Below, piece after piece: positions 7,517-64,000 of a stretch of 64,000 nucleotides of DNA. Numbering within the stretch: the stretch's first letter is position 1; the number at the start of each line of letters is the position of its first letter. Origin of the DNA: a virus; the IMG/VR virus record IMGVR_UViG_3300047274_000210, positions 1 through 64,000 of that record; one strand, 5' to 3'. Made by a program: the position numbers and the translations under genes. Under the pieces are notes generated by a model that was given only the letters and a program-made list of their open reading frames with translations, was not told the origin of the DNA and did not search any database.

Positions 7517-9053
7517 TTTGGGCCTCCTGTTCCAAAAATTCATGTTCGAGTTCATCTAACTTATCTTCATCCAATACTGGCATGGCAGATACTTGAGACA
7601 CTGACTTATCTAAAACGATTTCTTCTGATTCAAAATGCTTGTTAAAGGTGTTATTAGCATTGCCACCACGCAGACGCATGCCCATCATTTTGTTTAACAT
7701 AGGTTTAGCATCTTCGATCATCTGCATTGGAGTTTCGCTCTTGAATAACTCTTCCACAAAGTTATTAAAGTATAAGATGTTGCGAGGAACCCATTCGCTG
7801 TACTCATCGCTCTTATCCATGTCTTTGAGATTTTTCCACTGACGCCAGCTTGGACTGATCTTAGCAGACTCAATATCCATTAGATGATTGGCACGTTGAA
7901 CAGCGACGATATGACAATATGTATTATGCGCCATCATTAGAGCATAACCGAAACTATCCCAACTAGTTTTGCCTTCCTTGCCAATCTTGTTCAACATTCC
8001 TGGCTTGTACCAGCAGATATCTCCGATGGACAGTCTTCGACCAATTTCTGATTCGAATGGAAAGGGGACATTAAAAGCCTGGCTAAGGGCTTTGTTGTCT
8101 GGGGCCTTGTCCATGATGACTGACCAACGCTTGTTGGTGTGCTGTGCGTTGGTATAGACGAGACCGTGTGCTGTAGCAATGAAGGGTGATGCGCAGTCAA
8201 AAGAAATGGTAAAGTTTTCATTTACATGCTTCCTAATTTGTCTTTGGATTAGAGTTAGATAGCAGGCCCAGTCTAATTGTGCTGTGCCCAAGAAGTGCAT
8301 CCAGTTTCTATTATCTAAAAGTTTTTCATCACGCAAGATGATAAGCCTTTTTAGTGCGACTTCCATGTCACACATGTTCTTACCACCCATGGCCCAACCT
8401 TCTGTTGGAAGATGTTTCACTGCTTCGTACCATGCCTGTGCGGTTTCCCAGTCACTGCCTTGTAGCACGTTTAAGAATTTAGTCTGTCCTAAGCGATTAC
8501 GAATAAAGTAATCATTATTGTGTAGAGTTTTATCTAAGCAGTCTTGAAAGCTCTTTAGTCCAGTTTTAGGACTATGAATATGATCGCTGGCCCAAGTAGG
8601 AACGTCTAGCAACATCGACCAATCTGCGGTCAACTCTAACCAATTTAAAATATTATCTCTGACCTTGTTAGCAGCGGGGCCTTCGAAGTTGTGCCAATCA
8701 AATTTAAGAACACCTTTACCGATCTGATAACCACCTGAGTCGCCAACGATTACAGTATTAGCACGATCTCTATCTTGGATCATAGCATCTTGGATCATAG
8801 TTTTTTCTAGATCCAGTTGGGCATGACCTGCAGAGTATAGTCCGTATTTGTAAGTGAAATATCCTTGTTCGGGATTAAGAAAATTCATTCCCTCAATACC
8901 GCGATCAAAGCCCTGCGGAATCCTATCCTGTGGAACAAATTCGTCGAATCGTTGTTTACTGATATATGTGCTGAAAAAACAGCTGATAGCCGGAAGATAT
9001 ACTGCGTAATCTTTCTGTAATGGTGTTAAGTTAACTGGTGGTCTATTTGTCAT
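7509..9053 (-). CDS. TGT/DpdA-like 7-deazaguanine transglycosylase
   Basis: 514 residues, longer than bacterial TGT (about 375). VIVGDSGGYQIGKGV (about 100-114) matches the DSGGFQ substrate-binding Asp block and FTISFDCASPFIATAHG (about 284-300) the nucleophile-Asp block of the tRNA-guanine transglycosylase superfamily; FLNVLQGSDWETAQAWYE and GWAMGGKNM match the GIVQGG-type strands. The usual CxCxxC zinc site is not evident, although an AHNTYCHI segment aligns with the TGT helix that carries the zinc His. DpdA relatives exchange G in DNA for preQ0-derived bases. Together with folE and a QueD-like gene this suggests DNA or tRNA base exchange; which one cannot be decided here. Confidence 0.75.
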   Translation of the reverse strand: MTNRPPVNLTPLQKDYAVYLPAISCFFSTYISKQRFDEFVPQDRIPQGFDRGIEGMNFLNPEQGYFTYKYGLYSAGHAQLDLEKTMIQDAMIQDRDRANTVIVGDSGGYQIGKGVLKFDWHNFEGPAANKVRDNILNWLELTADWSMLLDVPTWASDHIHSPKTGLKSFQDCLDKTLHNNDYFIRNRLGQTKFLNVLQGSDWETAQAWYEAVKHLPTEGWAMGGKNMCDMEVALKRLIILRDEKLLDNRNWMHFLGTAQLDWACYLTLIQRQIRKHVNENFTISFDCASPFIATAHGLVYTNAQHTNKRWSVIMDKAPDNKALSQAFNVPFPFESEIGRRLSIGDICWYKPGMLNKIGKEGKTSWDSFGYALMMAHNTYCHIVAVQRANHLMDIESAKISPSWRQWKNLKDMDKSDEYSEWVPRNILYFNNFVEELFKSETPMQMIEDAKPMLNKMMGMRLRGGNANNTFNKHFESEEIVLDKSVSQVSAMPVLDEDKLDELEHEFLEQEAQNV

Positions 9054-9055
9054 TT

Positions 9056-9454
9056 TTATGGGCTCGCCTGTACTTCTGCCATTTCGCCGAAGTCTGAAGT
9101 ATCTCTGGCTAGTGTAGCAGTTATTTTAATTTGTTGTTTTGCTTTTTCTAAATTGTCTAATGCTATTTTAACAGCTTGATTATCTTTTGCCAATGATTCC
9201 CAAGCCAATTCTTCATCACGCTTCTTACGTGCCCAATCGAGTAAAGATTCTGCATCCGGTGTTAAACCTACCGTGGCATGGCTCATATTGAGCATGACCC
9301 AGTTGTTACCGTCGAATACTTCCATGTTCTGAGTAGAAGTATTAAATCGCATATTACCAACACCTTGTTGTCCTGAATAAGAATTTACATAGGTGCTGGC
9401 ATTACCATTAGATATTGTCATATAACGACCGGATTGTGTGATGCCTTTGATCAT
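9056..9454 (-). CDS. conserved hypothetical, probable virion-associated protein (132 aa)
   Basis: Opening MIKGITQSGRYMTISNGN and the phrase NTSTQNMEVFDGNNWVMLN recall fibre-type ornament domains, followed by a helical charged half (SLLDWARKKRDEELAWESL). This arrangement is frequent in aquatic T4-like phages. TAATG overlap with the clamp gene. Role unknown. Confidence 0.6.
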   Translation of the reverse strand: MIKGITQSGRYMTISNGNASTYVNSYSGQQGVGNMRFNTSTQNMEVFDGNNWVMLNMSHATVGLTPDAESLLDWARKKRDEELAWESLAKDNQAVKIALDNLEKAKQQIKITATLARDTSDFGEMAEVQASP

Positions 9455-10191
9455 TAGGCCGCCTGTGCTGGAATGATGTATTTGTAAACTGCAAGTCCGC
9501 TGTCTAGAGTGATCTGGATAGCACCTTCGTTGCTCAACGACATCTTGGTGTTATTAACATCCGCAACCTTGAGAATACTTAAGATTGGTAGAACAGGCCA
9601 TGTCCAGCCTCTGTCAAGTTTACCTGCTACACTCTGAGCGAAGATGAACTCTCCTGCATGAGTCGATGCATCACCAAAGATAAACTTTAGATTACCGCCT
9701 TCGGTTTTGGCTAAGAATGTTGGATGTTCGTTATGCGCACCTGCTTGGAAGTTAAAACGCTGTACTGCGGCAACAGTGGGTTCGATTTCAACATCCCATT
9801 TAACACCGCGGAATTTCACAGTCTTCATCTTTTCGTTGATGATTTCCTGATTCATAAAACGATAGTCGTTTTTGAAGTCACCATCTTTGTTTTCAAAGTG
9901 GATGCCGACCGGTATAGTTTCGCCGTTGCGCTCAGCAAACGTGATATTGATCTTAGCTTCTTCTTTGTATTCAGCACCGTCTACTAGATATTTTAATTTC
10001 TGTAGTTGCGGCATACCAAATGTACCGATCATGTCGGGATATGGATTAGCAGTTTCTGCCTCCATAATAACTGATCGATCGTCAGCCATTGAAAAGATCT
10101 GTGTCTTATCTTCTGAACCTGTGACTTTGACTGTGGTTAAGAAGCCTAGATTTTGTGTGTGGCTTACGATGTCTTGTAAAATGTCTTTCAT
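9454..10191 (-). CDS. 45: sliding clamp (T4 gp45-like)
   Basis: 245 residues, close to the 228 of T4 gp45. Trimeric processivity ring for the gp43 polymerase and, in T4, the mobile activator of late transcription. The sequence shows the two-domain clamp pattern with a KFIFGDASTHAGEFIF strand pair and a C-terminal VYKYIIPAQ strand. Its neighbour is the polymerase, and the clamp loader gp44 is at 30 kb. A host-type promoter lies directly upstream (10217-10245). The recognition rests on family pattern and context rather than on a catalytic motif. Confidence 0.88.
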   Translation of the reverse strand: MKDILQDIVSHTQNLGFLTTVKVTGSEDKTQIFSMADDRSVIMEAETANPYPDMIGTFGMPQLQKLKYLVDGAEYKEEAKINITFAERNGETIPVGIHFENKDGDFKNDYRFMNQEIINEKMKTVKFRGVKWDVEIEPTVAAVQRFNFQAGAHNEHPTFLAKTEGGNLKFIFGDASTHAGEFIFAQSVAGKLDRGWTWPVLPILSILKVADVNNTKMSLSNEGAIQITLDSGLAVYKYIIPAQAA

Positions 10192-10216
10192 TTAGAGAGT
10201 CTCCATGTATATTAAG

Positions 10217-10245
10217 ATTATATTTAGATCGTGAGTAAAAATCAA
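10217..10245 (-). promoter_or_regulatory. sigma70-type promoter for the clamp gene
   Basis: TTGATT (10240-10245), 17-nt spacer, TATAAT (10217-10222) on the minus strand, 26 nt before the clamp ATG at 10191. Fits the other five N17 promoters in this window. Confidence 0.65.
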
Positions 10246-10253
10246 CCTCGAAA

Positions 10254-12923
10254 TCACTCAAAATCAAACAATTTGCTAAAGTTATTATCGGACCTAGTAG
10301 AACCTATGTCCCATTCTAGTACACCTATTAGGTTTTCTAGTTTTTCATCGATGATGGTAGTTTCCATCTCTGCATGATCAAACGGCAGATCCTTGAACCA
10401 TTGAGGGAGTCGAAGCTCATCAACAGGATAAGCAACGGATGTATAGCCCATTGGATTGTCTTTGACCTTGCAGACAATGACTTTAGCGCCATCGACGATG
10501 TTCATCGAGTATTTGTCGTCCATCATACGCTTCAAGGTATTCCAGTTAAGGCTAGCACGTACATGTCCTGGCATGTTGGCTTTGCCTGCTTTCTTTTCTT
10601 TATTAGCGTATTCTGTAATATTATTGGCACGTTTGGGAGATCCTTTCTCCCAACCCGGTCTAGTCTTGAAGTCTGTTCGGAAGTCTGTGATATAGTTTAG
10701 CACATCTTCGCGATCTTCACCATTCAACACTCGAGTAAGCACATCAGACAAGAAGTCTTGAATGACTACAGGAGTATCTGATCGCTTAAGGTCCAGGCCC
10801 ATGGCCTTGATCTTTCCGGTTTTACCATCAAGATCCTGTCGTTTACCTTCTTTGTCAAAGTATAGAACAGCATATCGTTTCTTGGTAATGAATAAACCTT
10901 TTGATGCGACAATTTCACGACCGGCCTTGATAACTTCGCCGCGTGTTTTAGGAACGTGGAAAGCATCTTGCATGAATTTAGGAAATGTTGAATTAACTTC
11001 TTCTCCGATGGTATCATATAGTTCGATGATATTGTCTTTACTCCACGGAATAAGACCTTTATCAATGTCTTTCTTTAGAGTATTATAGGCGCTGAAATAA
11101 CAACTGTCTGTATCACCGTAGATAATGGCCTTGCCTATATGATTGTACTCACCGGTAATGATTTCATTTACTTTACTGGCCATGTGACGAGCAATAGCAC
11201 GACCAGTAAGTGTAGTCGACTGTCCGATTCTATTATCAAAGAAACGGCAACCGGGATTAAGAATAGCACCGTACAGTGAGTTGAGATTAATCTTTTTAAC
11301 TAACTGTCGCTTATCCCAATATTCTTCTTCGATTTTATTTCCTGCCGTAATTGATTCTTTGAGCTTTTTCTGCATGTCCTTGCGTTCAGCATACCAACGT
11401 TTTAGTAGGCCGGGAATGATACCTTCTTTTTCGTAGGTAAAGATCGTACCGTTAGCTGATAACATCCAAGGTTGATTGCTGTCAAAGATTAAATCATAAA
11501 TCTGTGCTGCACTTAAGGTATCATTATTACCATCTTCCCAGTCTATGGTAATTTCTCTACCCACTTCTTTTGACATCACAGACGTATATTCAATACTACC
11601 AAACATACCTTCCCATGCCGCTGCAAAGCTCTTGCCTTTGCCCATTTCGGCGGCAATATAATCCTTGGTACCATCTTGACGCAGTTGTCCTACGATAGTT
11701 TCCGGCCCCATATTTAGGGCACGAATAGCAGAAGGATAAAGAGAATTAATATCGAGAGAACCAATCCATTCATGGATACCTTTCTTGGGATACGCAACAT
11801 AAGCACCTGCGGCCTGTGTATCGCCGTGTTCTTCCATTTTGCGACGATTAGGAACGATCATTCCCCGCTTGTGTGCTTCATTAATAATGGCCTGTTCAGT
11901 AACAGCTACAGCACCCATGGTAGTCTGTAGTAGAACTGTACATTCGTGGGCTAGTGTATTGGCTAGATCTAAGAATTTTAGTTTCTTATCTAGCTTATCT
12001 AACAGCGCACAGTCTTGACGATTGTACTCAATAAACTTGCGGAAGTCGTTGTTATAAAGTTGATCCAGTGTACCTTCGTAGACAGTCTTACTTTCACCGA
12101 CTTCCATTTCTCCGATAGCGTCTAATCGATATGTATGGCGTTCTTCATAGGTATACTTTCTATAAAGTTCGAGACTGTCCAGGTGTACTCGTCCGATGAG
12201 ATCGTAGGTAACGGCAGTTTTTCCAAACTTTTCATATTCACGCTTCTTAGGAAATTGATTCCAAAGACAGAATCTACGTGTATCTTCTTTTGACAGAACT
12301 TTAGTTACACGGTTGACAGTATAGGGGATATCAAAACCTTCCGAGTTCCAACCACTAAGCACGTCTGCATCTTGGATAAGATCTAAGAAAGTGTCTAACA
12401 TGTCTGCTTCGTTATCGAACAGCATGGTATTAGGGAATTCTTCTACAGCCTTCTTGGCCTCAGCCATGGATAATGTTTTCGGAGGAATAGCAAGACAGAC
12501 CAATGTGTTCATCCATTGCAGATGCACAGCGATGGCAGTGATTGGCATAAATGCATCGTCTGGCGATGCATATCCTCGTTCGGGATCAAAGTCTACTTCA
12601 ATATCGAAAAATGCTACATTTAGCTTTGGAGCATCTTGATTAAGGTAGTGATCTTCGAGACATCGATAAATGGGGTTAATATCGGATTCATAAAGAGTTT
12701 TATTTGAGTGGATCGCTAGCTCTTTACGAAGTTCTTTGATGTTCTTACAGATTACACGAGTTAGAGGATCTCCATAGATCGATTGGAATTTACCTCTAGG
12801 ATCTCTGTAGTAAAACAGGTGTTTGGCAGGGTAATCTTTGAAATGCCTTTGCCCTTTGCCATCGCGTTCAACGACATGAATCATGTCCTCGTCGCGATTG
12901 TAGAATGCGTCAACGTAGCTCAA
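10254..12923 (-). CDS. 43: family B DNA polymerase (T4 gp43-like), TTG start
   Basis: 889 residues. Exonuclease motifs: DIE at about 107-109, NSEGFD at 193-198, YNRQD at 300-304. Polymerase motifs: DINSLYPS (391-398), KKINLNSLYG (543-552) and YGDTDS (602-607), then KKRYA at 681-685. All catalytic carboxylates are present, so the enzyme should polymerise and proofread. The start is a TTG at 12923 preceded by CGGAGAAAAAA. A 5-bp hairpin sits 3 nt upstream of that ribosome binding site (see the operator entry) and a TATAAATA late element at 12999. No intein or intron interrupts the gene. Confidence 0.97.
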   Translation of the reverse strand: MSYVDAFYNRDEDMIHVVERDGKGQRHFKDYPAKHLFYYRDPRGKFQSIYGDPLTRVICKNIKELRKELAIHSNKTLYESDINPIYRCLEDHYLNQDAPKLNVAFFDIEVDFDPERGYASPDDAFMPITAIAVHLQWMNTLVCLAIPPKTLSMAEAKKAVEEFPNTMLFDNEADMLDTFLDLIQDADVLSGWNSEGFDIPYTVNRVTKVLSKEDTRRFCLWNQFPKKREYEKFGKTAVTYDLIGRVHLDSLELYRKYTYEERHTYRLDAIGEMEVGESKTVYEGTLDQLYNNDFRKFIEYNRQDCALLDKLDKKLKFLDLANTLAHECTVLLQTTMGAVAVTEQAIINEAHKRGMIVPNRRKMEEHGDTQAAGAYVAYPKKGIHEWIGSLDINSLYPSAIRALNMGPETIVGQLRQDGTKDYIAAEMGKGKSFAAAWEGMFGSIEYTSVMSKEVGREITIDWEDGNNDTLSAAQIYDLIFDSNQPWMLSANGTIFTYEKEGIIPGLLKRWYAERKDMQKKLKESITAGNKIEEEYWDKRQLVKKINLNSLYGAILNPGCRFFDNRIGQSTTLTGRAIARHMASKVNEIITGEYNHIGKAIIYGDTDSCYFSAYNTLKKDIDKGLIPWSKDNIIELYDTIGEEVNSTFPKFMQDAFHVPKTRGEVIKAGREIVASKGLFITKKRYAVLYFDKEGKRQDLDGKTGKIKAMGLDLKRSDTPVVIQDFLSDVLTRVLNGEDREDVLNYITDFRTDFKTRPGWEKGSPKRANNITEYANKEKKAGKANMPGHVRASLNWNTLKRMMDDKYSMNIVDGAKVIVCKVKDNPMGYTSVAYPVDELRLPQWFKDLPFDHAEMETTIIDEKLENLIGVLEWDIGSTRSDNNFSKLFDFE

Positions 12924-63060: not shown

Positions 63061-63171
63061 TGGTGTGGTCGGTAGGATTCGAACCTACAAAGGCTGTGTC
63101 TAAGACGGCGCCCTATTCCCTAGTGCGTTTCGCAACGGACCGGAGGTCTTCCATGTTCCACTCACGACCAC
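63061..63171 (-). tRNA. unusual tRNA-like gene (candidate Leu, anticodon UAG)
   Basis: Perfect 7-bp acceptor (63165-63171 with 63065-63071), encoded discriminator plus CCA (63061-63064), perfect T arm GTAGG/CCTAC with loop TTCGAAT. The best anticodon arm has a C-A mismatch and a loop with anticodon UAG. However 76 nt separate the acceptor and T arms, against about 41-57 in normal tRNAs, because of an extra hairpin with a GCGA tetraloop between the D and anticodon regions. It could be a degenerate tRNA, a tRNA with an insertion, or a tRNA-like RNA with another job. Confidence 0.5.
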
Positions 63172-63244: not shown

Positions 63245-63976
63245 ATGATCGATTACTTAACTATCCTAAAAAATGGAATTACTATACAGAGTTCTGGAAC
63301 CAGCGGTACGGCCAAAGAATTCTATCAGTCTCCTAAAAAATTGAAAGCAGCCAACTCAGTGGCTAGACAGGTTCAGGGTATCGATAAGCATAGTAGTATC
63401 TATACCTGTTGTAAGATCACCCATGCAGGCGGTCTATTAGCTCAGACATTACCAGGTTTGGAAATAGGAGCCAAAGTAGATATTGTAGCCTTCAGCGCCT
63501 ATGATTGGGTTAGAGATATCAAGAACTATACACATACTCACATAACTCCTTTACATGCCAAAGCTATAATGTCTACCAAAAACTTCTATAATCTAGACCT
63601 AAATGGTATCACGATCACCTGCGGTGCAGATCCAGTTACCTGGGATATCGTTAGAACATTTGTGGCACAGGGAGCTAGATTTATAACCAATTGGGGCATG
63701 ACAGAGATAGGCCCATTGGCTATCAATAAAGAATTCGATTCGGTAGATACCGTTGATAGATACGCATCATTAGGACCTTTACATTCTACCATAATGGGAG
63801 ATACCAAGTTCTGTGATACTGACATCAGGAACGGGGAGTTATATGTCAAAGGGGATATCTGTATCTATGATGATTGGTACGGAACTAAAGATCGAGTAGT
63901 TGACGTTGGAGGAACTCTGTTTTATCTAGGCAGGACCAACACTGACGTGGATCTTAATCAGCCGAGAAAAGGCTAA
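63245..63976 (+). CDS. compact AMP-binding (ANL superfamily) enzyme
   Basis: 243 residues, about half the usual ANL size. SSGTSGTAK (16-24) is the P-loop A3 motif, NWGMTEIGP (149-157) the A5 motif, GELYVKGD (197-204) and FYLGRTNTDVD (226-236) the A7/A8 region. The protein begins at the P-loop and ends at the hinge, lacking the N-terminal sub-domain and the mobile C-terminal domain with the catalytic Lys. It could adenylate a carboxylate but completing thioester formation would need another protein. TAATG overlap with a following gene. Confidence 0.85.
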   Translation: MIDYLTILKNGITIQSSGTSGTAKEFYQSPKKLKAANSVARQVQGIDKHSSIYTCCKITHAGGLLAQTLPGLEIGAKVDIVAFSAYDWVRDIKNYTHTHITPLHAKAIMSTKNFYNLDLNGITITCGADPVTWDIVRTFVAQGARFITNWGMTEIGPLAINKEFDSVDTVDRYASLGPLHSTIMGDTKFCDTDIRNGELYVKGDICIYDDWYGTKDRVVDVGGTLFYLGRTNTDVDLNQPRKG

Positions 63977-64000
63977 TGCAGAATATCATTCCTATAATAT
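63976..64000 (+). CDS. start of a coupled plus-strand gene (partial)
   Basis: ATG at 63976 shares a base with the preceding TAA; only MQNIIPII is visible before the window ends. Likely translationally coupled to the AMP-binding gene. Confidence 0.5.

Follow-up and report, generated by a model that had tools for sequence, protein, structure and literature searches.

In ANL (AMP-binding) enzymes, both half-reactions are usually held to depend on a mobile C-terminal domain: together with the A10 lysine, this domain promotes efficient adenylation and is required for the CoA/thioester step. The solved enzymes to which we compared our protein, namely feruloyl-CoA synthetase (8wev), MenE (3ipl/6nj0), and a plant enzyme (5ie2, which belongs to the same structure series as the oxalate-CoA ligase 5ie0), have chains of about 440-510 residues with an N-terminal sub-domain and, when full-length, the C-terminal A10 domain. 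Our study describes a half-size ANL that has neither of these parts and shares with those enzymes the N-domain core fold and motifs A3, A5, A7, and A8 (Z 19-21, with some 219-233 residues aligned at roughly 20% identity; profile E 6.8e-9 for 8wev). A solved precedent for an ANL protein without the first sub-domain is given by 4gs5, a Dyadobacter fermentans acyl-CoA synthetase-like protein whose structure comprises 350 residues, since the half-size ANL aligns with its residues 25-249 (Z 19.1, 15% identity); this protein runs about 100 residues beyond the aligned core, as expected of a C-terminal domain. No structure lacking both outer parts was present among the structural matches listed.

Two kinds of phage protein are also close to the half-size ANL. 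The BFVD entry A0A6J5L770, a 214-aa "AMP-dependent synthetase/ligase" of an uncultured Caudovirales phage, is likened to it by fold and size only (TM 0.70 by query and 0.79 by target, 15% identity), and a half-size viral ANL-like record is thus already public. The ANL388 proteins (loci L041, L042, and L051) are ANL enzymes from related phage cassettes but, unlike the half-size ANL, they have about 390 aa and an A10-type C-terminal domain (GKINRK) and form their own sequence cluster. We found no description of half-size phage ANLs in the open-access literature, the scope of our search. The fold itself is known; what appears to be new, within that literature, is an ANL form that lacks both outer parts, is conserved in phages and bacteria, and is coupled to a GNAT or a DUF6356 protein.

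The half-size ANL gene, its predicted structure, and its motifs

The window analyzed here comprises 64,000 nucleotides, positions 1 to 64,000 of the IMG/VR virus record IMGVR_UViG_3300047274_000210 (66,071 bp). A sequence-only reading had placed at 63245-63976 a half-size ANL enzyme of a T4-like phage. The enzyme is genuine: the coordinates are exactly those of an ATG-started ORF on the + strand encoding 243 aa, whose product matches positions 170-376 of the 384 in the Pfam AMP-binding profile PF00501 with E 7.8e-12 and 45.1 bits, above the cut-off of 29.9; 47 of 48 family relatives match this profile as well (E up to 0.01). The open frame around the ORF has only 248 codons; therefore, there is no in-frame hidden N-terminal half upstream. 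The T4-like label has partial support in a large DNA polymerase assigned to the PHROG family phrog_262 (E 1.1e-200), which we take to be T4-type. The suggestion of a MenE-like enzyme, on the other hand, was not sustained, as the window protein is absent from the TIGR01923 (o-succinylbenzoate-CoA ligase) matches at E up to 0.01, and one relative, L083, reaches 26.7 bits against an NCBIfam cut-off of 330. The PHROGs search with the half-size ANL gave no match to an ANL family.

The AlphaFold2 model, built from an alignment of 48 sequences, has a pLDDT of 91.8 and a pTM of 0.89. It superposes in its entirety on ANL N-domains, best on 5ie2 (Z 21.2, rmsd 2.7, 233 residues), followed closely by MenE, feruloyl-CoA synthetase, DltA, and NRPS domains. 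The protein is thus modeled as the core of the ANL N-domain, with neither the N-terminal sub-domain nor the C-terminal A10 domain.

Motif conservation was counted in 48 aligned relatives with lengths of 223-255 aa. The A3, A5, A7, and A8 motifs noticed in the sequence-only reading are present and are kept throughout this set; all features given here lie on the + strand. The A3 P-loop SSGTSGTAK (residues 16-24, 63290-63316) has S17, G18, and G21 in 48/48 and K24 in 45/48, and it is followed by an A4-like THAGGL (residues 59-64, 63419-63436; H60 in 46/48, A61 and G63 in 48/48). A signature of the family, T-H-x-H-x-T-P (residues 96-102, 63530-63550), has H97, H99, T101, and P102 in every relative; where this family has the two histidines, the closest solved enzyme has L and F. 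The A5 motif NWGMTEIGP (residues 149-157, 63689-63715) is invariant at W150, G151, M152, E154, and G156. The A7 motif reads TKD in the window protein (63884-63892) and TGD in most relatives, with T214 and D216 in 48/48, and the A8 GR (63929-63934) has R230 in 48/48. The absence of both outer parts, also claimed earlier, is a property of the whole set: just 9-30 residues precede the SG of A3, leaving the N-terminal sub-domain absent, and the chain ends 1-17 residues past the A8 Arg, from which it follows that these proteins have no A10 domain.

Distribution in phages and bacteria

Loci with the half-size ANL numbered 9 in IMG/VR by a single-sequence scan and 71 by a profile scan, and we identified 17 more in bacteria (one genome per species). 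Named phage genomes of INPHARED gave no tblastn match to the half-size ANL or to the product of the next gene, and no megablast match to the first 20 kb of the window. The bacterial carriers, titled Pelagibacteraceae, Methylophilaceae, SAR116, and Methylococcaceae, among others, are single-cell or metagenome assemblies (SAGs/MAGs), and misassigned phage contigs are possible among them. Several of their loci have cellular-looking neighbors when read by eye, and some of the contigs exceed 100 kb; GuaB and GuaA adjoin the ANL in L081, L083, L084, and L086, and a short-chain dehydrogenase and a sugar-dehydrogenase-like gene are found beside it in Pelagibacteraceae. The minimal size of 223-255 aa is common to phage and bacterial members. 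Compared within the same genomes, family members score 1e-93 to 1e-112 and other ANLs about 1e-11 or weaker, with the exception of one partial match over 45 positions (1.3e-14).

In samples that include the seed genomes, the half-size ANL was found in 4/197 genomes of the Pelagibacter order, 4/150 of the family Methylophilaceae, and 1/385 of the wider class. Judged from these comparisons, the half-size ANLs are a sharply distinct family with a patchy presence in bacteria. On the tree of the family, the bacterial label takes four changes among viral rows, and the starred branches force all four. This is consistent with repeated transfer; the tree has no outgroup and gives no direction of transfer. 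At the level of sequence, we regard the half-size ANL as a complete, separate family that is carried by many phages of aquatic origin and by a small number of marine bacteria.

The coupled gene and the cassette neighbors

The stop codon of the ANL gene and the start codon of the next gene overlap in a TAATG, which agrees with the start at 63976 given before. This gene occupies 63976-65229 (+) of the record, of which the window holds 63976-64000, and encodes 417 aa. It had been put forward as a possible partner of the ANL enzyme. By its predicted fold it does not supply the missing half of that enzyme, given that it encodes instead a sulfotransferase-like domain and a GNAT acyltransferase. Residues 241-417 have a GNAT fold (E 4.3e-6 in Foldseek; Z 12.2 against VIA, with 140 residues aligned; profile E 0.024), and residues 1-240 resemble SULT7A1 (Z 10.8) and the curacin sulfotransferase (Z 10.7), but in a weakly modeled region, with pLDDT below 50 over residues 31-98. 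Most relatives encode these two parts in separate genes; a GNAT homologue is present in 33 of the 38 non-redundant viral loci and a sulfotransferase-like homologue in 25, and the bacterial carriers have no GNAT homologue within the flanks covered. After the coupled gene, past the window, there is a second P-loop gene that looks sulfotransferase-like by eye (L002:5219-5929 (-), that is, 65218-65928 of the record), with homologues in 15/38 non-redundant viral loci.

A small DUF6356 protein (Pfam E 9.4e-9 for one member) is encoded in 21/38 non-redundant viral and 11/13 bacterial loci, mostly directly upstream of the ANL, whose start it often overlaps. Its residues H16, H37, P41, and F44 (L051 numbering) are invariant. 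We searched for it in the 66-kb record of the window and in the 146-kb record of the closest relative and found it in neither, so no partner is universal. DUF6356 has reportedly been named in a halotolerance genomics study. Other Alphaproteobacteria with DUF6356 (L102-L121) offered no explanation for its pairing with the ANL: 11 of these 20 loci have a neighbor read by eye as an Lrp/AsnC-type regulator, and none has a relative of the half-size ANL within the short flanks covered.

Additional genes accompany the cassette in some phages. TctA/TctC homologues occur in 9/38 non-redundant viral loci; close to the ANL cassette of L003, for example, a TctA gene (PF01970 E 6.8e-89) and one resembling TctC lie at 8841-11367, and similar genes are seen in other loci. 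The tctA gene is reported from a SUP05 viral contig (PMC4164917). A tryptophan-halogenase homologue is found in 6/38 non-redundant viral loci, and in L041 (4762-5832; PHROG E 1.2e-58) it lies directly upstream of the DUF6356-ANL pair. Radical SAM, nitroreductase, and QueC-like PP-loop genes adjoin the cassette in L011 (352-8188). Upstream of the ANL ORF in the window, a 108-nt tRNA-like element at 63064-63171 (-) scores 29.1 bits against the Rfam tRNA gathering threshold of 29. It has about 52 nt where 15 are expected between the acceptor and anticodon parts, receives no ARAGORN call, and folds no better than shuffled sequences (z -0.78); in L003 its ends are conserved and its middle is different.

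Proposed function and its alternatives

We give about an even chance to the reading in which the half-size ANL is a stand-alone minimal enzyme, the A3-A8 core of the N-terminal domain, which adenylates its substrate and works with a separately encoded acceptor or transferase. Most likely, the core would bind ATP and a small carboxylate and make an acyl-adenylate. This reading draws on the AMP-binding match above the Pfam cut-off, the confident N-domain model, the invariant core residues, the low dN/dS, the sharp separation of the family and its common size in phages and bacteria, the TAATG overlap, and the frequent GNAT and DUF6356 neighbors. The invariance of the nucleotide-binding core suggests that ATP chemistry has been retained, and, because the A10 domain is missing, the enzyme is expected to stop at the acyl-adenylate or to make it slowly, and to need a partner. 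It would probably not complete thioester formation alone; the earlier suggestion that it may only adenylate is plausible. The activated acyl group would then be used by or together with a separate partner, which may be the coupled sulfotransferase-GNAT protein in this phage and DUF6356 and/or GNAT in relatives. As for the substrate, the TctA/TctC neighbors hint at small carboxylates, but they are accessory. The reading is weakened by the loss of the A10 lysine and the C-terminal domain, by the lack of a universal partner and of a GNAT homologue in the bacterial flanks covered, and by the loss of the N-terminal sub-domain, which may have helped to form the acid site.

The alternative with the best standing is that the ANL core has been put to a new use in a non-catalytic binder of a nucleotide or an acyl-adenylate. 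Such a protein could be a sensor, an inhibitor, or a scaffold and might, for instance, regulate its DUF6356 or GNAT partner; we consider this possible, if somewhat unlikely. Its appeal lies in the clean loss of the A10 domain in 48/48 relatives, in the conserved coupling with small partners, and in the variation of the A7 motif, whose middle residue is G in 29, K in 14, N in 2, R in 2, and Q in 1, so that the canonical Gly is replaced in 19/48, mostly by Lys, with the window protein among the 14 that have Lys. However, none of the N-domain catalytic residues that we examined varies, and the A5 Glu and the A8 Arg are among them.

Returning to the minimal adenylating enzyme, a more specific proposal is a two-component system in which the ANL core makes acyl-adenylates and delivers them directly to its partner, bypassing CoA, to modify a host lipid, metabolite, or protein. 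The partner would be DUF6356, which is small and probably membrane-associated, in bacteria and many phages, and the sulfotransferase-GNAT protein here. We regard this proposal, partner included, as unlikely in its full form. Less probable again is a split ANL in which a host or phage ANL protein provides the A10 function in trans and the complex acts as an ordinary acyl-CoA synthetase. Such a protein is at hand in some relatives, since L041, L042, L046, L048, and L051 each have, 4-5 kb away, another ANL that is longer and includes a C-terminal domain; but this second ANL is present in only 6/38 non-redundant viral loci and, within the flanks covered, in no bacterial locus, and no free-standing C-terminal/A10 domain was found in the half-size ANL loci.

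With respect to selection, pairs of half-size ANLs with unsaturated dS have dN/dS values of 0.04-0.18, which indicate purifying selection on the family; the pair of the window gene and L003 is saturated at synonymous sites and has a pN/pS of 0.13. The sequence-only reading had named the full-length enzyme fused in relatives as the sign of a truncated remnant, and we found no longer or fused form in about 88 loci (71 from IMG/VR and 17 bacterial). A decaying remnant of a full-length acyl-CoA ligase, which the roughly halved length might suggest, is hence rejected as extremely improbable in view of the identical boundaries in phages and bacteria, the lack of a longer form, the low dN/dS, the confidently predicted fold, and the P-loop glycines, A5 Glu, A7 Asp, and A8 Arg kept in 48/48, which a relic would not be expected to retain.

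These results outline a recurrent cassette of uncharacterized phage genes (ANL, GNAT, sulfotransferase-like, and DUF6356), of which the ANL and DUF6356 members are common to phages and streamlined marine bacteria. A widespread family that lacks the C-terminal domain and is under selection offers a test, set by nature, of the capabilities of a minimal adenylating core in ANL enzymes.
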